Assembly: GCF_003002815.1 (NCBI RefSeq)
Contig: NZ_PVTF01000001.1
Location: 682,001 to 746,000, forward strand
Direction of reading: 5' to 3'
From: Umezawaea tangerina
Lineage (GTDB): Bacteria > Actinomycetota > Actinomycetes > Mycobacteriales > Pseudonocardiaceae
Length of the DNA: 64,000 nt
Shown here: one piece after another, positions 12,086 to 26,663 of the stretch
Layout of the letters: each line of letters starts with the position of its first letter
Position numbering within the stretch: the stretch's first letter is position 1
Position numbers and translations under genes: made by a program
The notes under the pieces: generated by a model
What the model saw: only the letters and a program-made list of their open reading frames with translations
Database searches by the model: none
Told to the model about the DNA's origin: nothing

Positions 12086-13747
12086 TCAGTCGACCTCGGG
12101 GAGCTCCGGGCTCAGCAGGTCGTCGGCGTCGACGATCCGGTACGCGTAGCCCTGCTCGGCCAGGAACCGCTGCCGGTGCGCGGCGTAGTCGGTGTCCAAA
12201 GTGTCCCGCGACACCACCGAGTAGAAGTGCGCCTGGCGGCCGTCCCCCTTGGGGCGCAACAACCTCCCGAGCCGCTGCGCCTCCTCCTGCCGGGACCCGA
12301 AGGTGCCAGACACCTGCACGGCGACCGAGGCCTCCGGCAGGTCGATGGAGAAGTTCGCGACCTTCGACACGACCAGCGTGCGGATCTCGCCCTTGCGGAA
12401 CGCGTCGAACAGCAGCTCGCGCTCCTTGTTCTTCGTGGACCCCTGGATGATCGGCGCGTCCAGCGCCGCGCCGAGCTCGTCGAGCTGGTCCAGGTACGCG
12501 CCGATCACCAGCGTCGGCTCGCCGGGGTGGCGGTCCAGGATCGCTTTCACCACCGGCATCTTCGTGCGAGCGGTGGAGCAGAGCTTGTACCGCTCCTCGG
12601 GTTCCGCGGTGGCGTACTGGAGCCGCTCGTTGTCGGTCAGCGTCACCCGCACCTCGGTGCACTCGGCGGGCGCGATCCAGCCCTGCGCCTCGATGTCGCG
12701 CCACGGCACGTCGTAGCGCTTCGGCCCGATCAACGAGAACACGTCGCCTTCCTGACCGTCCTCGCGCACCAGCGTCGCGGTGAGACCGAGCCTGCGCCGG
12801 GACTGGAGGTCCGCCGTCATCCGGAACACCGGCGCGGGCAGCAGGTGCACCTCGTCGTAGACGATCAGCCCCCAGTCGCGCGAGTCGAACAGCTCCAGGT
12901 GCTTGTACTCGCCCTTGGACTTGCGGGTGATCACCTGGTAGGTCGCGATGGTGACCGGCCGGATCTCCTTGCGCTCGCCCGAGTACTCGCCGATCTCCTC
13001 CTCGGTCAACGACGTCCGCGCGATCAGCTCGCGCTTCCACTGCCTGCCCGCGACGGTGTTCGTCACCAGGATCAGCGTGGTCGCCTGCGCCTCGGCCATC
13101 GCGGCCGCGCCGACCAGCGTCTTGCCCGCACCGCAGGGCAGGACGACGACACCGGACCCGCCCGCCCAGAACGCCTGCGCGGCCAGCCGCTGGTAGTCGC
13201 GCAGCTTCCAGCCGTCCTCGGCCAACGAGATCGGGTGCGCCTCGCCGTCGACGTAGCCCGCGAGGTCCTCGGCGGGCCAGCCGATCTTCAGCAGCATCTG
13301 CTTGAGCCTGCCGCGCTCGCTCGGGTGCACGACCACCGTGTCCGCGTCGATGCGCTCGCCGATCATCGGGACGATCTTCTTGTGCCGCAGCACCTCTTCC
13401 AAGACCGCTCGGTCCACAGTGCTCAGCACCAGCCCGTGCACCGGGTTGTTCGCCAGCTGCAGCCTGCCGAAGCGGCCCATCGTGTCCACGACGTCCACCA
13501 GCAGCGGCTGCGGCACGGGGTAGCGGGAGAACCGCACCAGCGCGTCCACGACCTGCTCGGCGTCGTGCCCGGCGGCGCGGGCGTTCCACAACGCGAGAGG
13601 GGTGACCCGGTAGGTGTGCACGTGCTCGGGAGCGCGTTCCAGCTCGGCGAACGGCGCGATGGAGACGCGCGCCTCGTCGGCGAGCGGGTGGTCGACCTCC
13701 AGCAGCAAGGTCTTGTCTGACTGGACGATCAGCGGGCCGTCGGTCAC
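12086..13747 (-). CDS. ercc3: XPB/ERCC3-type DNA repair helicase
   Basis: This superfamily 2 helicase (553 aa) is of the bacterial XPB type. After an N-terminal XPB-like domain it has Walker A CGAGKT near residue 200, the DEVH box in VYDEVHLLP, motif III LGLTATLVREDG including the XPB RED element, and a C-terminal helicase domain with GTFGSRQEEAQRLGRLLRPKG (motif VI region). The start is GTG 13747 with AGGAG nine bases upstream; the site overlaps a 12-bp palindrome at 13749-13760. In mycobacteria the gene neighbours the helicase-associated protein found here at 24.0-26.3 kb, but here about 10 kb separates them. It is thought to act in nucleotide excision repair or transcription-coupled processes. 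Confidence 0.92.
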   Translation of the reverse strand: MTDGPLIVQSDKTLLLEVDHPLADEARVSIAPFAELERAPEHVHTYRVTPLALWNARAAGHDAEQVVDALVRFSRYPVPQPLLVDVVDTMGRFGRLQLANNPVHGLVLSTVDRAVLEEVLRHKKIVPMIGERIDADTVVVHPSERGRLKQMLLKIGWPAEDLAGYVDGEAHPISLAEDGWKLRDYQRLAAQAFWAGGSGVVVLPCGAGKTLVGAAAMAEAQATTLILVTNTVAGRQWKRELIARTSLTEEEIGEYSGERKEIRPVTIATYQVITRKSKGEYKHLELFDSRDWGLIVYDEVHLLPAPVFRMTADLQSRRRLGLTATLVREDGQEGDVFSLIGPKRYDVPWRDIEAQGWIAPAECTEVRVTLTDNERLQYATAEPEERYKLCSTARTKMPVVKAILDRHPGEPTLVIGAYLDQLDELGAALDAPIIQGSTKNKERELLFDAFRKGEIRTLVVSKVANFSIDLPEASVAVQVSGTFGSRQEEAQRLGRLLRPKGDGRQAHFYSVVSRDTLDTDYAAHRQRFLAEQGYAYRIVDADDLLSPELPEVD

Positions 13748-13946: not shown

Positions 13947-15743
13947 ATGAGCAACGAGTCGACCCCCGACCCCAAGGCCGCGGACGCCCCGGAGAGCACT
14001 CCCGAGGCGACGGAGACCGCCCAGACGCCCCCGGTGAGGAAAGCACCGGTCCGGAGGTCACGGGCGAAGGCCGCGCCCGCTGCCGAGACCGCCGCGGCCG
14101 ACGCCGCGCCCGAGGGCGCCGCCGCGACGCCGGAGGCCGCGAAGGCCGCTCCGGTCAGGAAGACCCCGGCCCGCAAGCCGAGGGCGAAGGCCACGCCCGC
14201 CGTCGCCGCCGACGAAGCGGCGCCCGCCGCCGAGGCCGCACCCGCCGCCGCCGACGCCGCGACGCCCGCCGCCAAGACGACGCCCGCGCGGAAGACGCCC
14301 GTCCGCAAGTCCAGGGCCAAGGCCGTCCCCGCGACGCCGTCGGTGCCCGCCGAGTCCTCGGTCCCCGGCGTGCCCGCGGTGCCCGCCTCGGCCGCGGTGT
14401 CGGCCGCCGTCGAGCCCCCGGCCGACGGTGCCGCCGACGCCATCCCGGTGGAGAAGGCCGCCGAGCCCGCCGCCGTCGAGCCGGCTGCCGAGCCCGCCGC
14501 CGCCGAGCCCGTCGAGCCGGTGGCCCCCGAGGTCACCACCGTCCCGGTCCCCGCCGGGGAGACCGCCCAGACCCCCGCCGAGCCCGCCGCGGAGCCCGCC
14601 GCCGCGGAGCCGGAGGCCGTGCCCGCCGAGCCCGCCGCGGTCGCCGAGGAGACCCCCGCACCGGCGGCGGAACCGGTGACCGAGCCGGTCGCCAAGGCGG
14701 AGGAGCCCGTCGCCGAGCCGGTGACCGAGGCGATCGAGATCCCCGCCGAGGCCGCGGCCTCCACACCCGCCGAGCCGGTCGAGGAGCCCGCGGACGTCGC
14801 GGAGCCCAAGACGGACGCCCTGCCCATCCAGCAGGCGCCCCCGGTGGCCCCCCAGGCCGACGCTGAGCCGCCCGCGGCGCCCATCGCTCCCGCCGACGCC
14901 GTCGCGGCCGCCGAGCCGCCCACGTCGGCGGAGGAGCCCAAGACGGACGCCCTGCCGATCCAGCAGGCACCCGTCGACACCGCCGCGGAGCCGGTTGTGG
15001 AGCCCGTTGCGGAGACGGCCGCGGAGCCCGTTGCGGAGCCCGCCGCCGAGCCCGCGAAGCCCGTCGAGACCGCCGCGGAGGCCGAGCCCGCGCCGGTGGA
15101 GCCGACGCCCCTGGTGCCCGCCCAGGCCACCGAGCCGGTGCCCGCCGTCCCCGCGCAGGCGGCCGCCGAGGCGACCCCCGGCGTCCTCTACAAGCCGACC
15201 AAGCCCGGCGACGAGGACGAGGAGGAGACCTCCTCCGGCGGCAAGGGCCGCTGGATCGCGATCGGCGTGGTCGCGGTCGCGGTGGTCGTCGCGATCATCG
15301 TCGCGTTCACCATGTTCGGCGGCAGCGACCCGAAGAACGCCGCGGCGGGCGACTGCGTGAGCCTGTCGGAGAAGTCGCTGAAGGACTCCAAGATCGAGAC
15401 CGTGAGCTGCGGCAGCGACAAGGCGCAGCTCAAGGTGGGCAAGGTGATCGGCAACGACTCCGACGCCTGCCCCGAGGAGGGCTTCTACCAGCAGTACCCG
15501 GTCGAGGGGAAGCCCGCCGAGGGCTACCGGCTGTGCCTGCTGCCCAACCTCACCGAGGGCTCCTGCTACACCCTCGATGACGAGGGCCTGAACTACATCA
15601 AGGGCGAGTGCAAGGGCCTCGAGGCGCTGAAGGTCGTGAAGATCATCAACGGGTCGACCGACACCGCCGCGTGCCCGGACGGCGCGGGCGAGTCGTACCC
15701 CGAACCGGCCATCACGTTCTGCTTCGCGCCCGCCGAGAACTGA
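13947..15743 (+). CDS. Large Ala/Pro/Glu-rich membrane protein with C-terminal LppU-like cysteine domain (paralogue 1 of 3)
   Basis: This 598-aa protein has three parts. Residues 1-127 contain three basic repeats of the form VRKxPxRRSRAKA at 30-42, 70-82 and 114-126, resembling Lys/Ala tails of HupB or histone H1. Residues ~128-430 are low-complexity Ala/Pro/Glu with a duplicated DALPIQQAP element. One transmembrane helix (IAIGVVAVAVVVAIIVAF) leads to a C-terminal domain of about 130 residues with eight cysteines in two matching halves. The positive-inside rule puts the long N-terminus in the cytoplasm and the cysteine domain outside. The start is ATG 13947 after AAAGG. Two further paralogues follow. 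The domain resembles LppU-type mycobacterial proteins; its function is unknown. Confidence 0.75.
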   Translation: MSNESTPDPKAADAPESTPEATETAQTPPVRKAPVRRSRAKAAPAAETAAADAAPEGAAATPEAAKAAPVRKTPARKPRAKATPAVAADEAAPAAEAAPAAADAATPAAKTTPARKTPVRKSRAKAVPATPSVPAESSVPGVPAVPASAAVSAAVEPPADGAADAIPVEKAAEPAAVEPAAEPAAAEPVEPVAPEVTTVPVPAGETAQTPAEPAAEPAAAEPEAVPAEPAAVAEETPAPAAEPVTEPVAKAEEPVAEPVTEAIEIPAEAAASTPAEPVEEPADVAEPKTDALPIQQAPPVAPQADAEPPAAPIAPADAVAAAEPPTSAEEPKTDALPIQQAPVDTAAEPVVEPVAETAAEPVAEPAAEPAKPVETAAEAEPAPVEPTPLVPAQATEPVPAVPAQAAAEATPGVLYKPTKPGDEDEEETSSGGKGRWIAIGVVAVAVVVAIIVAFTMFGGSDPKNAAAGDCVSLSEKSLKDSKIETVSCGSDKAQLKVGKVIGNDSDACPEEGFYQQYPVEGKPAEGYRLCLLPNLTEGSCYTLDDEGLNYIKGECKGLEALKVVKIINGSTDTAACPDGAGESYPEPAITFCFAPAEN

Positions 15744-15750
15744 GTCGGCG

Positions 15751-15790
15751 TACCACCGTGTGGACTTGATCGTCCACACGGTGGTATTTC
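15751..15790 (+). terminator. Strong terminator after paralogue 1
   Basis: A perfect 15-bp stem (15751-15765 with 15772-15786) with a six-base loop is followed by TTTC, eight bases after the stop. It separates paralogue 1 from paralogue 2, so the latter probably has its own promoter in 15790-15849. Confidence 0.85.
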
Positions 15791-15849
15791 GGGACCGTAT
15801 TTTTGCCACTTTTCGGTGAATACCGTCAACTCGACCGGCGTTCGAGCCG

Positions 15850-16320
15850 ATGCAGTGCCCCATGCGCAGAATCCTGCTGGCCCTCGGTGCGGTCGCCCTC
15901 GCCCTCGTCGGGGCGTACGCCCTCGGCCTGTTCGACAGCGAGCCCCCGCAGGTCGCCGCGGGGCAGTGCGCGAGCATCTCCGGCAGCACCGAGGCCCCGC
16001 GCTTCACCACCCTGGACTGCGGCTCCGACCAGGCGAACGTCAAGGTCGCCAAGGTCGTCGAGCAGGGACCGTGCCCGGTGGGCGGCGCCACCTACTCCAC
16101 GTACACGGCCGACGCCACCCTGTGCCTGATCCCGAACTTCGTCGAGGGCTCGTGCTACGGCCAGGACCAGGAGTCCGGACTGCTCAAGGTGCCGTGCGGA
16201 ACGGCCCAGTCGGTCAAGGTCACCAAGGTCCTCGGCGCCGGGGCGGCCTGCGGGGAGCAACGCGCCGTGGCGTACCCGGAACCCGCTGTCACCTTCTGCC
16301 TCGCCAAGGGCGACGCCTGA
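15850..16320 (+). CDS. Short secreted or anchored LppU-like cysteine-domain protein (paralogue 2 of 3)
   Basis: This protein of 156 aa has an N-terminal hydrophobic segment (RRILLALGAVALALVGAYAL) that is either a signal anchor or signal peptide without a lipobox. It is followed by the same eight-cysteine domain as its two neighbours: GQCASI, TLDCGSDQANVKVAKV, CP, LCLIPNF, GSCYG, VPCGT, AACG and TFCL. It lacks the cytoplasmic extension of paralogue 1. ATG 15850 or ATG 15862 could start it; the second gives the cleaner signal (MRRILLAL). No function is known. Eight cysteines outside the membrane suggest four disulfides. Confidence 0.75.
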   Translation: MQCPMRRILLALGAVALALVGAYALGLFDSEPPQVAAGQCASISGSTEAPRFTTLDCGSDQANVKVAKVVEQGPCPVGGATYSTYTADATLCLIPNFVEGSCYGQDQESGLLKVPCGTAQSVKVTKVLGAGAACGEQRAVAYPEPAVTFCLAKGDA

Positions 16321-16398
16321 CAACGATGTGGTCACTTCGCTGCGGGGACCGGGGCCGCCGAATACGTTTCTGCCTCCCGTGAACCGAGAGGACCACCC

Positions 16399-17160
16399 GT
16401 GAGCACGCCCAACCACCCGCCACCCGCCGGGCCCGCAGGCCCTCCGCAGGGGCCGGGCCAGGCACCGTACGGCCCGCCGCCGCCCTACGGCCAGCAGGCA
16501 CCGCAGCAGCCGGGGTGGGGCCAGCCGCAGCAGCCGACCCCGCAGGGCTGGGCCGCGCCGCAGCAGCCGGGCCCCGGCCAGCAGCCGCCCTACGGCCAAC
16601 CGCCCTACGGCCAGCCGGGGTTCCAGCAGGCCCTGCCGCCGACGCCGCCACCAGCGAAGAAGGGCGGCGGCAAGATCAAGCTGGTGATCACCCTGCTGGT
16701 CGTCGTCGGCGCCATCGTCGGCGGCTACTTCCTGAACAAGGACGCCCCGTCCAGCGCGAACGTCGGCGACTGCATCAACATCAAGTCGGCGAGCATCACC
16801 AACCCCGAGCTGGAGAAGGTCGACTGCGGCACGCAGGCCGCCGCCTTCAAGGTCGCGAAGGAGCTGGGCAGCGCGTCGGACAAGTGCCCCGAGGGCGACT
16901 ACGCGTCCTACACCGAGTCCGGTCGGCGGAGCAGCGGTTTCACGCTCTGCCTGATGCTGAACGCGGCCGAGGGCGACTGCTTCAAGGAGGAGGGCTCGAT
17001 CGTGGCGGGCAAGACCACCAAGGTCACCTGCGACGCGTCGGCCAGCTACAAGATCGAGAAGGTCGTCAAGGGCACCGCCGACAAGGCGGCCTGCGGGCCG
17101 GACGGGACCGAGATGGTCTACTCCGACCCCGCGACCACGTTCTGCCTGGTCCGACCCTGA
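16399..17160 (+). CDS. Pro/Gly/Gln-rich membrane protein with LppU-like cysteine domain (paralogue 3 of 3)
   Basis: This 253-aa protein starts at GTG 16399 with GAGAGGA upstream. Residues 1-85 are proline-, glycine- and glutamine-rich with several PYGQ/PYGP repeats, a composition common in cytoplasmic tails of actinobacterial membrane proteins. A basic patch (KKGGGKIK) precedes one transmembrane segment (LVITLLVVVGAIVGGYFL). The exposed C-terminal domain has eight cysteines spaced as in the two upstream paralogues, beginning VGDCINI and ending TTFCLV. All three genes point the same way, so the group arose by tandem duplication with exchange of N-terminal parts. Function is unknown. Confidence 0.78.
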   Translation: MSTPNHPPPAGPAGPPQGPGQAPYGPPPPYGQQAPQQPGWGQPQQPTPQGWAAPQQPGPGQQPPYGQPPYGQPGFQQALPPTPPPAKKGGGKIKLVITLLVVVGAIVGGYFLNKDAPSSANVGDCINIKSASITNPELEKVDCGTQAAAFKVAKELGSASDKCPEGDYASYTESGRRSSGFTLCLMLNAAEGDCFKEEGSIVAGKTTKVTCDASASYKIEKVVKGTADKAACGPDGTEMVYSDPATTFCLVRP

Positions 17161-17212
17161 CAGACCCCCCGACCCGGTAGTCGGGAGTGCCTCCCCCCAC
17201 GGTGCACGAGAC

Positions 17213-17253
17213 GGAGGGGCGGTCGGTCGCGTTGTGCGACCGGCCGCCCCTCC
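17213..17253. terminator. Bidirectional terminator between converging genes
   Basis: An 18-bp stem (17213-17230 with 17236-17253) containing one G-T pair and a five-base loop lies between paralogue 3 (+) and the ABC substrate-binding lipoprotein gene (-). It can serve both transcripts. Confidence 0.8.
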
Positions 17254-17283
17254 GCTCGTCTTCCGGGTCTTGCGACCGGGGAA

Positions 17284-18273
17284 CTAGCTGGTCGTACCCG
17301 GTGGCAGCAGCTGCTGCACGTCGAGCCTGCCCGGCAGCACGTCCTCGGTGTCCATCATGTCCGCGACCCGCTGGAGGCGGATCGGGTTGAGCGACAGCGG
17401 GAACGTGCCGACTGAGACCAGCGCCGCGGTCTGCTGGTCGACGTCGACGTAGCTGCTCAGCACGTCCTGCACGCTGAGCTTGTTGTTCGACGCGTTCTGC
17501 TGCGCGTCGCGCAGCACCGAGCGGAACAGCGCCAGCGTCTTGGGGTTGCCGTCGGCGAACTTCTTGCTCGCCGCGTACCCGGACATCGGGAAGTCCTTCG
17601 TCGGGCCGATCGCGGTGTCGGTGACGATCCGGGCACCGGTCTCGCGCTGGACCTTGGTGATGAAGGGCTCGATCATCCAGGCCGCGTCGACGGTCTTGGA
17701 CTGCATCGCCTGCTGCATCTGCTCGAACGGCATCTCGATGAAGTTGATCTTCTGCTTCTCGATGCCCGCCGTGTCGAGCACGGCCTTCGTGGTCAGCGCG
17801 CCGATGTCGTCCGCGCTGTTCACGGCGATGCGCGGGTTCGACTTCTTCGCCGGGGCGTCGTAGGACGCGTCGGTCGAGACCAGTGCCATCGAGTTGGCGC
17901 CCGCCTGGTAGGCCTCGCCCTGCAGCTGCAGCTGGGTGCCCTCGGCGACCTTGCGGAACAGGGTCACGTGGCTGGCCCAGGTGACGTCCAGCGTGGTGTC
18001 GAGCTGCTTGATGCCCTCGTCCTCGCTGGTCTGGGGCACGAGCTGGACCTGAAGGCCGGCCTTCTCGAACAGTTTGTCGTTGATCGCGATGCGCAGCGGG
18101 GCCACGTCCACGACCGGCATGACGCCGATCCGCAGGGTGTTGCGCTCGATGTCGGTCGCACCGCTGTCGCCGCCACCGGGCAGCAGGCTGCATCCGGCAG
18201 TGGTCGAGACGACGGTCAGGGCACACGCGACCAGCGCTGCCGCACGTCGCAGAACATGCGCTCGGGTAGGCAT
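17284..18273 (-). CDS. Orphan ABC transporter substrate-binding lipoprotein (NMT1/SsuA-like)
   Basis: This 329-aa protein has a lipoprotein signal peptide ending in the lipobox TTAGC. It carries a periplasmic-binding fold of the NMT1/SsuA/TauA type (LRIGVMPVVDVAPLRIA near the mature N-terminus, then DVTWAS and MPFEQMQQAMQSKTVDAAWMIEP). Such proteins bind nitrate, sulfonates, taurine or thiamine precursors. ATG 18273 is preferred because GAGAGG lies five bases upstream; the GTG at 18327 has no ribosome site and would delay the signal peptide. No permease or ATPase gene adjoins it, so the transporter core must be elsewhere or the protein has a sensory role, perhaps with the divergent NIT-domain kinase. 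Confidence 0.85.
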   Translation of the reverse strand: MPTRAHVLRRAAALVACALTVVSTTAGCSLLPGGGDSGATDIERNTLRIGVMPVVDVAPLRIAINDKLFEKAGLQVQLVPQTSEDEGIKQLDTTLDVTWASHVTLFRKVAEGTQLQLQGEAYQAGANSMALVSTDASYDAPAKKSNPRIAVNSADDIGALTTKAVLDTAGIEKQKINFIEMPFEQMQQAMQSKTVDAAWMIEPFITKVQRETGARIVTDTAIGPTKDFPMSGYAASKKFADGNPKTLALFRSVLRDAQQNASNNKLSVQDVLSSYVDVDQQTAALVSVGTFPLSLNPIRLQRVADMMDTEDVLPGRLDVQQLLPPGTTS

Positions 18274-18651
18274 GGCACCTCTCGCCTGTTGACTCGGGGA
18301 GTCGAGTTGATCAGTGTTCGTCGTCACTTGCCATACTGACGTCGCGTCACCGGGGAGGTGGCACAGAGGCAGCTAGGTTTCGACGTTCGGGGATGTTAAC
18401 CACCCGAACGCATGAAGCGACAGCCCAACTCGATACGGTGCGTGCTGCTAGAGGCTTCCATCAAGTAGGGCTGGACCATTACGCTGCCGGCCGGGTGGTA
18501 CAGGTTCTAGCGGACCGTCGGGTTCCTGGAGCAGAATGGAGCGCTTGGTCGGCGCTAGGCTCCTGTGCTGCATTTTGGCCCGATTTTGCGAGTCCATACT
18601 TCGGTCCTGGGGAGAGGCCGGGGACACTGCTGCCGGAAGAGGAAGCCCAGG
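18274..18651. promoter_or_regulatory. Divergent intergenic region between the binding protein and the conservon
   Basis: This 378-base gap separates two divergent start codons and must hold promoters for both the binding-protein gene (-) and the conservon (+). I see a short inverted repeat GACTCGGGGAGTC just upstream of the binding-protein gene and TTAAC-containing AT-richer stretches near 18393, but no convincing -35/-10 pair. No gene is apparent. Confidence 0.4.
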
Positions 18652-21600
18652 GTGGCCCGACGAGAGAGAGGTCCCAGCCAGTCCGGCGCGGGGACCGCAC
18701 CGCGCTCCGATAGGCCCGAAACGGGTGACGGACTGGCTGCGCTACGTGATGCAACTGTGACCGAGTCGACGGGATCTGGAAAAACCGACGTGCCGCAGAA
18801 CAGCGCAACAGATGCGCAGAGCGCCCGTACGTCGAGCTTGAGGCTGCGCAACTGGCGCCTTCGGACCAAGCTCTTCGCCGTCCTGCTCATCCCGACCGTC
18901 GCCGCGCTCGCGCTCGGCGGCCTCCGGGTGCAGACGGACCTGCAGAGCGCCACCGACTTCAACCAGCTCGCCAACGAGGTGCAGCTGGAGAGCTCGGTCG
19001 CCGACTTGGTGCAGCAGCTCCAGCGCGAGCGCGACCTGAGCGCGAGCCACGTGGCCTCGGGCAAGCAGGTCGACCGCGTGGTGCTCGACCGCCAGCTGCG
19101 CCGGGTGAACGACACCTCGGACGCTCTGCAGACCAAGATCACCGAACTCAGCGGCGACCTCGACCCCGCCGTGGCGGAGCGCTTCCGCCGCGCGGCCGAG
19201 CAGCTCAAGCGCCTCAACAGCCTGCGCAACGCCGTGCGCGACACCGCGTACCCCTCGGACGCCGTCCTGCGCACCTACTCCGAGTCGGTGGAGAGCCTCC
19301 TCGACCTCGGTGAACAGGCCATCGCGGGCATCAACGACCCCGAGCTGGTGAGGTTGCACCTCGCCACCAACGCGATCGCGCGCATCAAGGAGCAGGAGTC
19401 CCGCAAGCGCGGCATCCTGCTCGACGTCTTCCAGCGCCAGGACTTCCCCGCGAGCCAGCAGCGCGTGCTGCTCGCGGCGAACGCCGAGCTCGACGCCGCG
19501 AGGAACGACTTCCGCAAGTCCGCGACGCCCGACCAGGCGAAGATCTACGACGACACCGTCACGGGTCTGATCGTCGACACGGCGAACGACATGCAGGAGT
19601 CGGCGCTGAACCTGGCGGCGGCCAACCAGAGCCTGGACAGCCTCCGCGCGGAGAAGTGGGACATCGCGTCCACGCTGACGGTGAACCTGACGCGCGACGT
19701 GGAGAACCTGCTCCTGGAGCAGCTGCAGAACCGCACCGACGAGCAGACCGGCCAGGCCCGCGCCGCCGCGTTCCGCGACTCCGGCATCGTGCTCGCCGCG
19801 CTGCTGCTGGCGCTGGCGATGGCCCTGTTCGTCGCGAGGTCGATCCTCAACCCGCTGCGCATCCTGCGCCGCACCGCCCTCGCGGTGGCCGACCACGGTC
19901 TGCCGGAGGCGGTCGGCAAGATCCTCGCCGACCCGAACCCGCAGCTCGCGGCCCAGAACGCCATCGCGCCGGTGCCCATCACGACCAACGAAGAGGTCGG
20001 GCAGGTGGCGCGGGCGTTCGACGCGGTGCACGGCGAGGCGGTCCGCCTGGCGGCCCAGCAGGCCCTCCTGCGCGACAACGTCAACGCGATGTTCGTCAAC
20101 CTGTCCCGCCGCTCCCAGGCGCTGGTCGAACGCCAGCTCAACCTGATCGACCGGCTGGAGCAGGACGAGCAGGACCCCGACCAGCTCGCCAGCCTGTTCG
20201 AGCTCGACCACCTCGCGACCCGCATGCGGCGCAACTCGGAGAACCTCCTGGTCCTCTCCGGCACCGACCTCTCGCGCAGGCTCACCCGGCCCGTCCCCGC
20301 GGCCGAGGTCCTGGGCGCCGCGGTGTCCGAGGTCGAGCAGTACGCCCGCGTGCAGGTCGGCCAGACCCCGGAGCTCACGGTCCAGGGCCGCGCGGTCAAC
20401 GACCTCGTGCACCTGGTCGCCGAGCTGCTGGACAACGCGACCGCGTTCTCCGACCCCGTGACGAAGGTCACGGTCCGGACGGCCCGCACCCGCAAGGGTG
20501 AACTGGCCATCGAGATCCAGGACCGCGGCGTCGGCATGGCCGAGCAGGACATCATCGACGCGAACGAGCGGCTGGCGGACCCGCCGGACGTCGACGTCGC
20601 CGTGTCCCGCCGGATGGGCCTGTACGTGGTCGCCCGGCTGGCCAAGCGGCACGACATCAAGGTCCGGCTGCGGGTCAACGAGGACATCGAGGGCGGCACC
20701 ACCGCGCTCGTCGTCGTCCCCGGCACGCTGGTCCAGGCGCCCGGTGCCGCCGGTGCCCCCATGGGGTCGCCGTCGGAGTCCCTCACGGACTTCCACCCGG
20801 CCCAGCGGGCCAGCGGCATCGCCGGTGCCTTCACCAGCAGCTCGCCGCGGTTCGACGACGACAGCTCGCCCGGCTTCCCGCCCCAGGGCGGCGCGGAGCA
20901 CACCGGCGGCTTCCCCTCCCAGACCGGGACCAACGGCTTCGGGTCGCAGAGCGCGGAGCACACCGGCGGGTTCCCGTCGCAGGAGTTCAGCCCCACGGGC
21001 AGCTACCCGAAGCCGGACCTGAACATGCCGGTCAGCTTCGTGCAGCGCGAGTCGGTCCCCGACGCGAACGCGGTGCCGTCCTTCGGCGTCACCCGCCCCG
21101 AGGAGGACTCCGGCGTCTGGCTGCCGATGTCCGGCGAGCAGGACCAGCCCGACCGGTCCTGGCCCGAGCGCAACGGCACCCCGGCCGCCGCCACGACGGG
21201 TGAGCAGACCCTGTTCACCGCCTACGAGGACCGCGGCGAGGACGCCTCGGCCCCGTTCGAGACCGGCTACGAGACGACCCGCTTCGAGCCCGTGGTGCCG
21301 CGTGCGGCCGTCGCGGAGCCCGAGCCGGAGCGGCGCAACGGCCACACGCCCGCGCGCAAGGAGGTCGACCACGACCTCGACGCCCCGACCGAGCGGCTGC
21401 CGATCTACGAGGCGGTCCTGTCCCAGTGGTTCCAGGCCGTCGGGAGCGAGACCTCCGCCGCCAAGGCCCAGGCGGTCCCGCCCGCCGAGAAGCCCGCGGG
21501 CCTCCCGGTGGCCGAACCCGAGATCCCCCTCTCGGACCAAGAGGAAGTGCCCTTGCCGACCCGACGGCCGAAACCCGTTCCGGCTGTCGCTCCCACCACA

Positions 21601-22083
21601 ACCGAGGTTTCCGTACCCTCAAGGCTCGACGGTCTGTCGGCTTCGGGACTGCCGAAGCGAGCCCCGAGGCCGGAAGCCGCACCTGTCCGGGAACCCGAGC
21701 CGGTTGCCGAGGCAGTGGTGGAGCAGGTCGAGGAGCAGGAGGCCCCACAGATGCAGGCGGAACCGACCGCCGAAAGCGCTTGGCAGTCCCCGGCCGACGA
21801 AGGCTGGTCCGCTGCCCAAGCACTGCTCAGCAAGACGCCAGACGCCAAGACACAAGCGGGGTTGCCCAAGCGGGTGCCCAAGGCTCAGCTTGTGCCAGGG
21901 TCAGCCGCGCCGAAGATCCCGTCGGCGCAGCAATCGCAGCGGCCCCCGCTGCCACCACGATCGCCTGACGCGATCCGTGGACGGATGTCGAGTCTTCAGC
22001 AGGGCGTCCGACGAGGGCGACACGCGTTGATCGACGCTTACGCTGGTGACCAGTCGAGCCGGCAAGACGAGGAGCAGGAGTGA
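18652..22083 (+). CDS. cvnA: Conservon sensor histidine kinase with NIT domain (CvnA)
   Basis: This is a large membrane kinase (1143 aa). In order: an N-terminal helix ([17 protein letters not shown]), an extracellular nitrate/nitrite-sensing (NIT)-type helical domain, a second helix ([17 protein letters not shown]), HAMP, a helical region with [10 protein letters not shown], and a HATPase_c domain with N box [12 protein letters not shown] and G boxes DRGVGM and [12 protein letters not shown]. The last ~400 residues are disordered and Pro/Glu-rich with two copies of [11 protein letters not shown] chose GTG 18652 because AGAGGAAG lies at a good distance; GTG 18757 is an alternative. It overlaps the roadblock gene by four bases. 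In Streptomyces, conservon kinases interact with the roadblock protein and GTPase as a GPCR-like complex. Confidence 0.9.
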
Positions 22084-22499
22084 CGACCGCAGCTCAGCCA
22101 GGCAGCTTTGGTTGGCTAATCACCGACTTCGTGCGCCGGGTACCCGGTGTTGCGCACGCCGTAGTCGTGTCGGCGGACGGGCTTCTGCTCGCCGGCTCGC
22201 AGGGCTTGCCACGTGACCGAGCCGAACAGCTTTCCGCGGTGGCGTCCGGTCTGGTGAGTCTCACCGCAGGCGCTGCTCGCTGCTTCGAGGCCGGTGGCGT
22301 GAACCAGACCGTGGTCGAGATGGAACGGGGTTACCTGTTCCTGATGTCCATCAGCGACGGTTCGTGCCTCGCCGTACTCGCCGCGCCCAACTGCGACATC
22401 GGTCTCGTCGCGTACGAGATGACCTTGTTGGTCGAACGGGTCGGACAGCAACTCACCCCGGAGCTGCGCGCTCAGCTCCAGGGCGTGGTAAGGCGGTAG
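22080..22499 (+). CDS. cvnB: Conservon roadblock/LC7 domain protein (CvnB)
   Basis: This 139-aa single-domain roadblock/LC7 protein is the second conservon component. The core reads [29 protein letters not shown] with a C-terminal helix containing [10 protein letters not shown]. Roadblock proteins act as GTPase-activating or scaffold partners of MglA-like GTPases, which fits the fourth gene of this operon. It starts at GTG 22080, overlapping the kinase stop (GTGA), so expression is coupled to the kinase. Length and sequence are typical of the family. Confidence 0.94.
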
Positions 22500-22528
22500 A
22501 CCTCATGAGAGCGTGGGGGTGAGCGGAG

Positions 22529-23308
22529 ATGGCTGAGAGATCGGGCGCCCACGGACGTCGCTTCGGTAGCGGTTTCAACTACCAGGAGTGGGCGGTCGGG
22601 GGTTTCCAGTTCTCGGATCCGGACGCCGCTGACCCCGCGCCGGATGAGGAACCGGACGAGGAAGCAGTGCCCAGCGTCAAACCGGTTGTCCGGCGGAAAC
22701 GCGGGCGACCGAAACGCGAGAGCGCGGAGATCGATGGCACAGGGCAGGGGCTAGACGACATGTCTCAGCGTGAGGTTGACGATTCGTCGTACGACTACGA
22801 CGACGTGCCGAACCGTTTCGACATCGACGGGTACGGAAGTGGTCTGTTCGGCGGACCGGGTGCGGATCTCTTCGGTGCCCACAACCTGCCCGACAGCGTT
22901 CCGGAACAACTGCCGTACACGACCGGCCAGCAGCCGATCGTGCGGCGCGAGGAGAACCCGGCGGCCGAATCGGGTTCGCTGGTCCGTCCGTACACCCGGA
23001 CCGGTGGTCGCACACGACCGGACTACGATCTGGCCATCGAGGCACTGGTGTCCACCAGTGAGCGCGGGCTGGAACGTGACGCGGCGGTGCTCCCAGAACA
23101 CCGGTCGATTTGCGGGATCTGCACGGACACCCGTTCGGTGGCCGAAGTGGCCGCCCACCTCCGACTGCCGCTAGGCGTCGTCCGGGTGTTGATCGGGGAC
23201 ATGGCCAGCATGGGTTTGGTTTTGATTCACCAGGGTGGTCTGGTCGTGGGAGACCGACCTTCCATTGACTTCCTTGAGAGGGTGCTCAGTGGGCTTCGCA
23301 GGCTCTAG
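22529..23308 (+). CDS. cvnC: Conservon DUF742 protein with AT-hook-like motif (CvnC)
   Basis: The C-terminal ~110 residues are a DUF742 domain (RPDYDLAIEALV, HRSICGICTDTRSVAEVAAHL, LGVVRVLIGDMASMGLV), with a winged-helix-like look. The 259-aa protein also has a ~150-residue acidic, probably disordered N-terminal extension containing KRGRPKR at 57-63, an AT-hook core (RGRPK). That suggests minor-groove DNA binding, which would give the conservon a route to the nucleoid; this is inference. The gene overlaps the GTPase gene by 20 bases. In Streptomyces the DUF742 protein binds the other conservon members. Confidence 0.9.
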   Translation: MAERSGAHGRRFGSGFNYQEWAVGGFQFSDPDAADPAPDEEPDEEAVPSVKPVVRRKRGRPKRESAEIDGTGQGLDDMSQREVDDSSYDYDDVPNRFDIDGYGSGLFGGPGADLFGAHNLPDSVPEQLPYTTGQQPIVRREENPAAESGSLVRPYTRTGGRTRPDYDLAIEALVSTSERGLERDAAVLPEHRSICGICTDTRSVAEVAAHLRLPLGVVRVLIGDMASMGLVLIHQGGLVVGDRPSIDFLERVLSGLRRL

Positions 23309-23894
23309 TCCCCAGGGCGCCGAGGGCGCACGGAAGCCGACGACCTCCGCGAAGATCGTGGTCGCGGGTGGCTTCGGCGTGGGCAAGACGACCTTCGTCG
23401 GCTCGGTGTCCGAGATCGTGCCGTTGACCACCGAGGCGGTGATGACCGAAGCCAGCGCGGGTGTGGACGACCTGTCGGCGACGCCGAACAAGGTCACCAC
23501 CACCGTCGCGATGGACTTCGGACGCGTCTCCCTGGACAGCGACCTGATCCTGTACCTGTTCGGTACGCCGGGTCAGCACCGGTTCTGGTTCATGTGGGAC
23601 GACCTGGTCCGTGGCGCCATCGGCGCCATCGTCCTGGTCGACACCAGGAGGTTGGCCGACGCGTTCGCGTCGATCGACTTCTTCGACGACCGGCAGCTGC
23701 CGTACGTCGTCGGCGTGAACTGCTTCGACGGGTTGCTGCACCACCGCATCGAAGACGTGCGGGAGGCGCTGACGATCGACCAGTCCGTGCCGATAGTGAC
23801 TTGCGACGCGCGGAACCGGCAGTCGACCAAGCAGACGTTGATCACGCTTGTCGAGCACGCCATGCGCCAGTGGATGTCCGTCCGAGCGGGTTAG
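23289..23894 (+). CDS. cvnD: Conservon small GTPase (CvnD)
   Basis: This 201-aa Ras/MglA-like GTPase completes the conservon. G1 is GGFGVGKTT near residue 27, G3 is GTPGQHRF (Gln in the switch II position), and the G4 position reads VNCFDG in place of canonical NKxD, as is usual for conservon GTPases. It starts at GTG 23289 with GAGAGG seven bases upstream, within the DUF742 gene. GTP state is presumably read by the roadblock protein and kinase. A strong terminator follows, marking the end of a four-gene operon. Confidence 0.92.
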   Translation: MGFAGSSPQGAEGARKPTTSAKIVVAGGFGVGKTTFVGSVSEIVPLTTEAVMTEASAGVDDLSATPNKVTTTVAMDFGRVSLDSDLILYLFGTPGQHRFWFMWDDLVRGAIGAIVLVDTRRLADAFASIDFFDDRQLPYVVGVNCFDGLLHHRIEDVREALTIDQSVPIVTCDARNRQSTKQTLITLVEHAMRQWMSVRAG

Positions 23895-24016: not shown

Positions 24017-26272
24017 TCAGTCCTCGACGAGCGCCGCGGACGTGATGCGGTGCAGCGGGAAGCGGCGGACCTCGCCGTAGCTGAGGTCGTAGCCCTCCAG
24101 CACGCCGCCGCCGACGATCTGGGGCTTGATCACGCGGGTCGCCGCCGTGCCGTGCGAGTCGACCAGGTCGACCAGCACGCTGCGCCCGTCCTTCGCCGCC
24201 CGCTGGAGCAGACCCAGCGTGGCCGACGGGCCGTTGCCGTGGTTCGCGGGCACGGAGATCCGCTCGCCGCGCTGGGTGGACCGCGCCCGGTCGCCCGCCC
24301 TGACCAGCCGCACCAGCTCGGACAGCTGGTCCTCGCTCGGCGTCGGCACGTGCACCGGCCTGCGCGTCGCACGGGACTTGCCGGGGATGCGCCTGCCGCC
24401 CACCCGCAGGTCGAGCACCCGGCCGTCCGGGCCCTCGGCGGCGGGGGAGAAGCCCGCCCCGCGCAGCCCGTCCAGGACGTCGGCCAGCGGCAGCGGGCTG
24501 ACCAGGACCGTGGGGGCGATCTTGCGGAGCTCCAGCGCGTCCGCGGCCGGGTGCGCCATGACCTCGGTGAGCAGCACCGGGTCGTCGCAGCGCAGGAACG
24601 ACCCGGCGGCACCGCCGCGCAGCCTCCCGTGCTTGCGGGCCGCGTCGTCGATCAGGTAGGTCAGCGACTGCGGGATCGGTGTCCTCGACCCCTTGCGGAA
24701 CAGCTCGTGCAGGTCGGAGGCCGTGCGCCCGGCGTCGAACGCGCGGCGCACGGAGCCCTCGCCCACCCGGTACACCGTGGCGCCGCCCGCCGACTCGACG
24801 TCGGCCACCAGCGCCAGGTCGTCGGCCAGTTCCGGCTCCAGCCTGCCGGGCGCCACCACGGTCAGGTCCGCCTGCACCAGGAAGTGGTCGACGGGCGCCG
24901 GCAGCGAGTCCGACAGCTGCTTGGCCGCCAGTGCGGGGCCCTCGCTGAGCAGCACCCGGCCGGCGGTGGTGATCGCGCCCCTGGACAGCACGGCCAGCGC
25001 GGTGCCCTCGGCCATCGTCCAGCGGACCAGCTCGTCGCGCAGCCGCCCGCCCCGGCGGGGCGCGCGCCACGCCAGCACGGCGGCCAGCTCACCGGCGTTC
25101 GTCACGGTCGTGCCCGGCTCGAGGCCCGCCAGCGCCTCCAGCACCCAGCGCCGGTCGCGCGGCGCGTTCGGGCGGTTCAGCTCGGCCGACAGCGGGTTCA
25201 GCAGCCGTTCGCGCTCGTCGCGCTGCCCGACCAGGCCGGGCAGCCGGGGCAGGTCCAGCCACGCTTGAGCCAGCGTCGACCAGCGCACCTCGGGGGTGGC
25301 GGTCAGCCAGGTGTCGGCCAGCGCGGTCGGCACCCACTCGGGCTCGGCGCCCTCGCTGTCGCCCACCAGCCCGGCGGCCACGACCACCTCGACCAGCAGC
25401 GCGGCCCGCTGCTCGTCGACCTCCAGGTCCTTGGCGATCCTGCGCATCTCGCGCACGCCCAGCCCGCCCGTGCGCAGCACCGACGGCGGGTCGGCCGACC
25501 ACGCCGAGATCAGCGACTCGACGTGGCGGAGCAGCTCCAGCGCCTCGCCGGCACCCGTCTCGTCCACGACGGCGACGTCCAGCGAGGTGGTCCTCATCGA
25601 CGGCTCGGTGACCTGGATCCGGCCCAGCGGGCGGTCGCCGCGCACCAGCAGGCCGACCTCGCGCGGCAGCTCGACGGTCTGGCCGTCGCGGCGGATCAGC
25701 AGCCCGCGGGCCAGCAGCTTCTGGATCGGGGTCTTCGCCTGCTCCAGCGCCACGACCAGCGCGGCGTCCCTGGTCTGGCCGATCGGCGGGCCGTCGGCCA
25801 GCGTCTTGAGCACCCGCAGCTCGTCCTCGCCCAGCGGGCTCAGGTCCACGTCCGCGAGGGCGGGCACCGAACGGCCGAGGCCCGCGGGGAACGCGGCCAC
25901 CGCGTCCCGCGAGGCGGGCGGGGTCGACAGGGCCTCGTCCGGGCCCCACAGCAGGGCGCGGGCGCGCAGCGCGGCCAGTGCCTGCTTGAGCGGCCTGGCC
26001 TTGACGTCCTTGCCCAGCAGCCGGGCCAGGTCGGGCTGCGGCACCGGGTTCAGGTCCGCGTCCAGCACCAGCAGCGCCTCGAGCACCGTCAGGGTGAACG
26101 TGTCCAGGTCCTCGCACGCCCGCGAGACCGACGCGCGGGTGCCGATCCGGGCCGCCAGCACCGCCGTGTCGGCCGGGACGGGCGTGGCCAGGTCCGGGCG
26201 GGCGCGCAGGAGCGCTACGAGCACCGAGTCGTCCTGTGCGCGCAGCCAGTCGGCCAGAGTGGTGCCGGACAT
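24017..26272 (-). CDS. Helicase-associated (XPB/Ssl2-like) domain protein without ATPase motor
   Basis: This 751-aa protein matches the actinobacterial helicase C3/XPB N-terminal-like family (Rv0862c type). It begins MSGTTLADWLRAQDDSVLVALLRARPD, continues through winged-helix-like repeats, and ends in a WYL-like C-terminal part (SHGTAATRVIKPQIVGGGVLEGYDLSYGEVRRFPLHRI). I find no Walker A or DEAD/DEAH motif, so it is probably an accessory factor. In mycobacteria, as I remember it, the gene lies beside ercc3; here the XPB gene lies 10 kb away in the same orientation. It diverges from the small gene at 26345, with 72 bases between starts. A DNA repair or transcription-coupled role is inferred. 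Confidence 0.8.
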   Translation of the reverse strand: MSGTTLADWLRAQDDSVLVALLRARPDLATPVPADTAVLAARIGTRASVSRACEDLDTFTLTVLEALLVLDADLNPVPQPDLARLLGKDVKARPLKQALAALRARALLWGPDEALSTPPASRDAVAAFPAGLGRSVPALADVDLSPLGEDELRVLKTLADGPPIGQTRDAALVVALEQAKTPIQKLLARGLLIRRDGQTVELPREVGLLVRGDRPLGRIQVTEPSMRTTSLDVAVVDETGAGEALELLRHVESLISAWSADPPSVLRTGGLGVREMRRIAKDLEVDEQRAALLVEVVVAAGLVGDSEGAEPEWVPTALADTWLTATPEVRWSTLAQAWLDLPRLPGLVGQRDERERLLNPLSAELNRPNAPRDRRWVLEALAGLEPGTTVTNAGELAAVLAWRAPRRGGRLRDELVRWTMAEGTALAVLSRGAITTAGRVLLSEGPALAAKQLSDSLPAPVDHFLVQADLTVVAPGRLEPELADDLALVADVESAGGATVYRVGEGSVRRAFDAGRTASDLHELFRKGSRTPIPQSLTYLIDDAARKHGRLRGGAAGSFLRCDDPVLLTEVMAHPAADALELRKIAPTVLVSPLPLADVLDGLRGAGFSPAAEGPDGRVLDLRVGGRRIPGKSRATRRPVHVPTPSEDQLSELVRLVRAGDRARSTQRGERISVPANHGNGPSATLGLLQRAAKDGRSVLVDLVDSHGTAATRVIKPQIVGGGVLEGYDLSYGEVRRFPLHRITSAALVED

Positions 26273-26344
26273 CTGCACCACGGTATATGTGCGCGCCCTG
26301 ATCGGGCACACTTGTCCCGACGTAAGCACCACCGAGGAGGAATC

Positions 26345-26530
26345 GTGGCGAAGGCCGCACGCCCTGAGCGCATCGACCCGCACTGGCCCGTAGTGCCCGA
26401 GGGCGAGCACGTCGTGAGCGAGCTCGCCAGCGACAGCCAGGGGGCGCAGTCGCCCTTCGGCGTCGTCACCTTCCCGCTGGCGGCCGAGGAGCTGCCCTAC
26501 CGGCACCCGGTGACCGAGATCAACAGGTAG
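26345..26530 (+). CDS. Small conserved protein (Rv0863-like), function unknown
   Basis: This 61-aa protein starts at GTG 26345 with an excellent GAGGAGG site. It begins VAKAARPERIDPHWPVVPEG and has no signal, membrane segment or cysteines. Its position, divergent from the helicase-associated gene and before the Mo-cofactor genes, matches that of Rv0863 in M. tuberculosis as I remember it. The good ribosome site, conserved position and following terminator support it as a real gene. I do not recognise a function. Confidence 0.7.
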   Translation: MAKAARPERIDPHWPVVPEGEHVVSELASDSQGAQSPFGVVTFPLAAEELPYRHPVTEINR

Positions 26531-26540
26531 TCCCGCCGCC

Positions 26541-26568
26541 GGGCCGCCGCCCCCGCGGGCGGCGGCCC
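26541..26568 (+). terminator. Terminator after the small conserved gene
   Basis: A perfect 12-bp GC stem (26541-26552 with 26557-26568) with a four-base loop lies ten bases past the stop, ahead of the malic enzyme promoter region. Confidence 0.7.
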
Positions 26569-26663
26569 AGGCGTGACTCCATTCGCCGAGCCGCGCGCGT
26601 TCCGTAATGGCTCGGAGACTAGGCTCGACCACCGCGTGGGCAGTACTTGACGTGGGAGGTTCG

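Follow-up and report, generated by a model that had tools for sequence, protein, structure and literature searches.

How did three adjacent genes of Umezawaea tangerina come to end in the same eight-cysteine domain, and what might their products do? The genes, here called G1, G2 and G3, lie in a window of 64,000 nucleotides (the whole stretch of DNA that was analysed; contig NZ_PVTF01000001.1, positions 682,001 to 746,000). A preliminary description of this window placed them between positions 13947 and 17160 and proposed that an ancestral four-cysteine unit had been doubled, that the gene had then been tripled with a swap of N-termini, and that the family resembles LppU-type proteins and has no assigned role. 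We found that G1 begins exactly at 13947 and G3 ends exactly at 17160, that all three proteins belong to the LppU/SCO3897 family (NCBIfam NF049863), and that the four-cysteine unit was doubled once, ahead of the divergence of the paralogues. Furthermore, we found that their domain is related to that of the Septum_form family (PF13845); this link is the new point, the LppU/SCO3897 family itself being already catalogued. The three genes and their parts are as follows.

13947..15743, + strand: G1, 598 amino acids; tail rich in alanine, proline and glutamate, membrane anchor (residues 437-455), two-unit eight-cysteine domain; NF049863 at 59.9 bits in two stretches
14037..14330, + strand: three basic motifs in the G1 tail, RK(A/T)P(V/A)R(R/K)(S/P)RAKxxP, residues 31-44, 71-84 and 115-128, regular-expression matches
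15255..15311, + strand: G1 membrane anchor, hydropathy 3.06 over 19 residues
15342..15551, + strand: G1 unit a, cysteines 470, 488, 508 and 530
15552..15740, + strand: G1 unit b, cysteines 540, 555, 576 and 592
15850..16320, + strand: G2, 156 amino acids; short anchor or signal peptide (residues 8-26), two-unit eight-cysteine domain; NF049863 at 54.6 bits in two stretches
15955..16140, + strand: G2 unit a, cysteines 40, 57, 75 and 92
16141..16317, + strand: G2 unit b, cysteines 102, 116, 134 and 150
16399..17160, + strand: G3, 253 amino acids, GTG start; PYGQ-rich tail, anchor (residues 93-111), two-unit eight-cysteine domain; NF049863 at 91.2 bits in two stretches
16675..16731, + strand: G3 membrane anchor, hydropathy 2.28, with KKGGGK just before it
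16759..16965, + strand: G3 unit a, cysteines 125, 143, 163 and 184; modelled strands 14-17, 27-30, 39-45, 58-62 and 70-76 (model numbering)
16966..17157, + strand: G3 unit b, cysteines 194, 211, 232 and 249; modelled strands 83-87, 94-98, 106-113, 126-131 and 134-140 (model numbering)

The matching cysteine spacing that had been noted in the three adjacent genes extends to their relatives, with all eight cysteine columns invariant in an alignment of 97 distinct homologous two-unit domains. These domains were picked from 112 hits as those with exactly eight cysteines and a length above 100 residues; the 15 excluded hits were cut by the end of a locus, frame-shifted or single-unit, one triple-unit protein being among them. 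Beyond the cysteines, only G12, A37 and G81 reach at least 90% across the 97 domains. The two halves of each domain, with four cysteines apiece, had been said to resemble each other, and self-alignment against shuffled sequences agrees for G1 (z 6.7, 0 of 2000 shuffles as good) and for G3 (z 5.8, 0 of 2000); the likeness within G2 is weak when taken alone (z 2.3, 54 of 2000 shuffles as good). Halves at the same position are much closer to each other across G1, G2 and G3 (z 11 to 26). In a tree of the 194 units from the 97 domains, a and b units separate with a split support of 86 and two b units misplaced, which shows that the doubling happened once, before the paralogues split.

Some relatives have one unit only, among them L055 and the Streptomyces-like L089-L095, which fits the ancestral four-cysteine unit of the preliminary description, and in a 92-unit tree of low support the 14 single units group with the 39 a units, apart from all 39 b units. 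One further member, from another family of the same order (L029:592-1686), carries three units with 12 cysteines and three NF049863 stretches. For structural studies there are thus natural forms with one, two and three units, and in the array both the doubling and the later divergence of the paralogues can be seen together, in an order that is clear.

NF049863 describes one 64-position unit with a cut-off of 25 bits, and G1, G2 and G3 all pass it, each in two stretches; a Pfam scan of the full-length proteins matched no family entry. The profile of the LppU lipoprotein equivalog NF049864 (mycobacterial Rv2784c type) aligns across the two-unit domain of all three, but the scores of 41.9, 38.7 and 46.6 bits miss its cut-off of 135, and no lipobox ([LVI][ASTVI][GAS]C) occurs in the first 200 residues of any of them. 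Accordingly, they are members of the LppU/SCO3897 family but not LppU-type lipoproteins, so that the proposed resemblance to LppU-type proteins stands at the level of the family and fails at the level of the lipoprotein. Forms with a cysteine in the leader were recognised by reading in five relatives (L096-L098, L107 and L108) that belong to a different family of this order.

The number of units varies between lineages: Streptomyces-like genomes (group g66, genus guessed from architecture) have one, most relatives of the window have two, and one locus has three. The SCO3897-type protein of the Streptomyces-like group (L089-L095) repeats the plan of G3, a PYGQ- or PQG-rich tail followed by an anchor, with half of the domain; it differs in its one unit and usually in being the sole match of its genome. 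NF049863 is present in 22 of the 41 genomes of the relatives set, 101 of 150 in the family and 20 of 296 in the phylum.

The AlphaFold2 model of the G3 domain, built from the 97-row alignment, has a mean predicted local distance difference test (pLDDT) score of 86.7 and a predicted template modelling (pTM) score of 0.80. It gives two alike halves of five strands each, as the internal doubling had led the preliminary description to expect, with cysteines at 14, 32, 52 and 73 in the first and at 83, 100, 121 and 138 in the second. In both halves the first cysteine (C1) opens strand 1, the second (C2) lies two residues past strand 2, the third (C3) falls between strands 3 and 4, and the fourth (C4) is within strand 5. 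Strands 1 and 2 probably form one hairpin, with C1 at its beginning and C2 just past its end, so that C1 would pair with C2, and C3 with C4, in each unit.

No solved structure matched the G2 sequence at an expect value (E) up to 10, and Foldseek with the G3 model gave a best E of 0.72, with none at 0.001. A recheck with VIA-align of 600 of the 602 chains ranked highest by Foldseek reached a best Z of 2.4. Single halves align weakly with the sheets of kinase N-lobes, which we read as a common five-strand sheet only, and kinship with kinases was rejected. These missing structural matches do not show a new fold.

The relationship to Septum_form was found from both directions. When the 97 domains were scanned against Pfam, 16 matched PF13845 at E up to 1 (best 2.7e-4), and the next family was matched by 2. 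Conversely, NF049863 is matched at E up to 0.01 (best 1.3e-6) by 12 of 23 Septum_form proteins from relatives, and it is the sole NCBIfam family they match; the canonical start motif was recognised in 23 of 30 loci, and these supplied the set. With hhalign, the unit profiles of the two families match at a probability of 85.6 and a score of 32.9, compared with a maximum of 20.5 in 60 column shuffles that kept the cysteine columns fixed. It speaks against the kinship that the profiles match mainly over the first 35 residues, the remainder of the unit resting on layout. A full-length hhalign of the two families is weak (probability 40.2), and the unit-level one is clearer.

The layout is closely similar. 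The halves of Septum_form are a clear repeat of each other (hhalign probability 99.0), and its AlphaFold model (23 rows; pLDDT 91.9, pTM 0.84) agrees with that of G3 in where the cysteines fall: C1 opens strand 1, C2 comes two residues past the end of strand 2, C3 is in the stretch that links strands 3 and 4, and C4 lies three to four residues into strand 5. Septum_form proteins of the Rv3835/MSMEG_6414 type therefore share with the LppU/SCO3897 domain two tandem four-cysteine units, the same order of strands and cysteines, and reciprocal hidden Markov model matches. They differ in unit length (about 100 residues against about 65 in LppU), in a long helix around C3 and another helix before strand 5, both of which the LppU units do without, and in H27, E30, H150 and E153, which are invariant in 23 of 23 Septum_form proteins and are not among the conserved columns of the 97 LppU domains. 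Like the G3 model, the Septum_form model found no close structural match with Foldseek (best E 0.56). Together, these results show kinship between the two units, that of LppU/SCO3897 being the shortened one. Most of 20 weak Septum_form/LppU hits that were scanned for units without a cysteine pair retain all four cysteines.

We claim no Septum_form membership for G1-G3: they miss the PF13845 gathering cut-off of 25 bits, the full proteins have no match at E up to 1, and the G3 domain alone reaches 13.8 bits (E 0.041). The Septum_form protein of the window's own genome (L088:1462-2166) scores 26.1 bits with NF049863, barely above its cut-off, so that names assigned automatically may confuse the two families.

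The wider significance lies in joining a catalogued family for which no role was found to one whose role awaits validation: by profile and predicted layout, each becomes testable via the other. In the literature searched, most subscription journals being outside its coverage, we found no paper linking the two families, no paper on SCO3897, nothing relevant on LppU with the septum, and no role for the LppU/SCO3897 family, in agreement with the preliminary description. Rv3835 was put forward as a possible ZipA orthologue from expression data, and in the passage concerned its part in division is said to need validation (PMC3989709). In a proteome study that names it ZipA-like, Rv3835 was lowered by telacebec, according to the part that treats this protein (PMC10609169). 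MSMEG_6414, its Mycobacterium smegmatis relative, is listed in a secretome (PMC7921967), which agrees with an outer domain. LppU has a value of -3.43 in a biofilm expression table of bacillus Calmette-Guérin (BCG) (PMC7387457, table entry). The passages of the Rv3835, MSMEG_6414 and LppU papers that bear on these proteins contain no test of a function.

How the array arose can be read from its neighbours and from the same region in relatives. Three neighbouring genes are kept at homologous loci:

12086..13747, - strand: XPB-type DNA repair helicase (NF045503, 857.7 bits), divergent neighbour
17284..18327, - strand: NMT1/SsuA-like solute-binding protein, convergent neighbour
18565..22083, + strand: NIT-domain histidine kinase, first gene of a conservon-like set

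We searched 26 loci by tblastn with the window proteins, comprising 20 regions of relatives, five loci from genome contigs and one second locus of the window's own genome. The XPB helicase adjoins the array at 11 of them, and the solute-binding protein and the NIT kinase lie on the other side at 8. Arrays of four genes are present in Saccharothrix carnea (L037), S. luteola (L038), Lentzea sp. (L039) and G009 (L044), arrays of three in both congeners (L042 and L043) and in G023 (L045), two genes in G014 and G003, and one in G021. The four-gene arrays of Saccharothrix, Lentzea and another genus occupy the same place, between the XPB helicase and the block of solute-binding protein and conservon.

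A tree of 35 domains, in which several rows have long branches, resolves these genes into orthologue groups. G1 groups with seven others (support 95/91), and G3 with two congener copies (86/74), near Saccharothrix_4, Lentzea_4 and G023_3 (98/92); the G2 group is weak (83/55). A fourth group, consisting of Saccharothrix_1, Lentzea_3, G009_3, G009_4 and G021 (95/93), has no member in the window. Since the groups are common to several genera and the fourth is missing here, the array is, judged from these relationships, what is left of an older one that had four genes or more, and not the fresh triplication that had been proposed.

The proposed swap of N-termini fares similarly. The N-terminal parts do differ as first described, with 436 residues rich in alanine, proline and glutamate and carrying basic motifs in G1, a short anchor in G2, and 92 residues rich in proline, glutamine and glycine in G3. 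However, the tails also vary within orthologue groups: the extremes in the G1 group are about 30 residues, in Lentzea, and over 400, in the window's genus, and the tails of the G3 group are P/G/Q-rich in six of seven orthologues, the exception G023_3 being P/R-rich. Tail plus anchor of G1 are 77% and 44% identical to those of the two congeners (domain 88% and 73%), and those of G3 93% and 79% (domain 93% and 69%). The plan of tail, anchor and domain is kept across orthologues, and the differences between the N-termini read as low-complexity growth and drift in place, with nothing that requires an exchange.

What these proteins do is best explained, with reasonable though far from full confidence, by a set of paralogous single-pass envelope proteins with a non-catalytic outer binding or scaffold module. 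The low-complexity tail would lie in the cytoplasm, followed by one membrane-crossing helix and, outside, a compact two-unit beta domain that four disulphides would pin. On the outer face of the membrane this domain may hold a wall or envelope partner, and tails of differing length could meet different cytoplasmic partners. Each protein has a single strongly hydrophobic stretch ahead of the domain, with lysine or arginine on the N-terminal side of the anchor. Because no polar residue besides cysteine is conserved in the 97 domains, no enzymatic or metal-binding site is indicated and a non-catalytic module is favoured. It is a guess, and one that we hold to be rather doubtful, that this partner takes part in building the wall or septum.

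Several observations weigh against this explanation. Just before the G1 anchor, 15 residues hold six acidic (D/E) and two basic (K/R) ones, making the N-in topology of G1 less sure, and an AYA near residue 24 of G2, seen by eye, suggests that its leader may be a cleaved signal peptide and G2 be released. ZipA acts in the cytoplasm, and no published experiment showing the function of any member was found in the literature searched. The Septum_form label itself rests on the ZipA-like prediction, which in the relevant passage awaits validation (PMC3989709).

The neighbourhood suggests another role, in which the paralogues would be accessory ligand-binding or sensor proteins for the solute-binding protein, the NIT kinase and the conservon block, their outer domain catching a small molecule or peptide and relaying its state. 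The block is kept beside the array at 8 of 26 loci, and sensory gene families show the same kind of variation in copy number and tail; however, three loci (L047, L048 and L059) keep XPB and array with no block nearby (L047 has only a distant solute-binding match of 28%), single-unit relatives come from other genomic places, and the convergence of G3 and the solute-binding gene leaves the array outside the kinase operon. We consider this role unlikely. We give an equally low chance to the reading that these are secreted or surface-exposed proteins acting outward, as adhesins, protease inhibitors or in antagonism, and that tandem duplication diversified them. Small, disulphide-rich, diverging domains repeated in tandem with loss and gain would suit such a job, as would a released G2, but G1 and G3 retain long N-terminal tails and an anchor, the orthologue groups are common to several genera, and Pfam gave no inhibitor or adhesin family.

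Still less probable is a tether between membrane and nucleoid, in which the basic motifs of G1 would bind a polyanion such as DNA and the outer domain would hold the protein in the wall, perhaps in connection with the XPB helicase. Three RKxPxRKxRAK motifs stand in a G1 tail that is otherwise rich in alanine and proline, comparable basic stretches can be read in the tails of both congeners, and XPB is adjacent at 11 of 26 loci. Yet the tail as a whole is acidic (isoelectric point 4.2), the Lentzea and G009 orthologues have short tails and no motif, and adjacency does not prove joint work. Going beyond the preferred reading of G1-G3 as envelope proteins with an outer scaffold, LppU/SCO3897 and Septum_form might be two branches of one actinobacterial superfamily that has not been joined before. 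Its five-strand, disulphide-pinned unit without a solved structural relative would be doubled in both branches and stand outside the membrane on disordered cytoplasmic tails as an envelope-side anchor of the growth and septation machinery, and the array between XPB and conservon would be the expansion of one lineage; we put this forward tentatively, as possible and on the whole improbable.

Two inverted structures lie next to the genes:

15751..15786, + strand: perfect 15-bp inverted repeat with a 6-base loop in the gap between G1 and G2, terminator-like without a T-run; z -4.94
17206..17259, no strand assigned: strong hairpin between the convergent G3 and the solute-binding protein gene; z -6.16

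The 15-bp repeat is the only copy in the genome; it is letter-identical in congener G002 and was not found in congener G001. We do not claim G1-G2-G3 as one operon, as this hairpin divides G1 from G2 and a promoter scan found nothing; the gap between G2 and G3 is 78 bases. Translation of G2 likely starts at 15862 rather than 15850, judging from its orthologues; the start at 15850 gives an additional cysteine (Cys3) in the leader.

The genome holds one further copy of the family, an anchored two-unit gene on contig C3 (L007:3950-4423) beside rpsL-rpsG-fusA, names that were read from the translations. LppU of Mycobacterium tuberculosis is likewise grouped with translation genes, in an expression cluster described in part of PMC1884158.

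Beyond the solute-binding protein gene, positions 18565-23894 hold a conservon-like set, with the NIT histidine kinase, a Roadblock/LC7 protein, a DUF742 protein and an ATP_bind_1 protein. At 24017-26632 follows an 871-residue protein with Helicase_C_3, a domain also found near the N-terminus of the XPB helicase at 12086-13747, so that two Helicase_C_3 proteins flank the array and the conservon.

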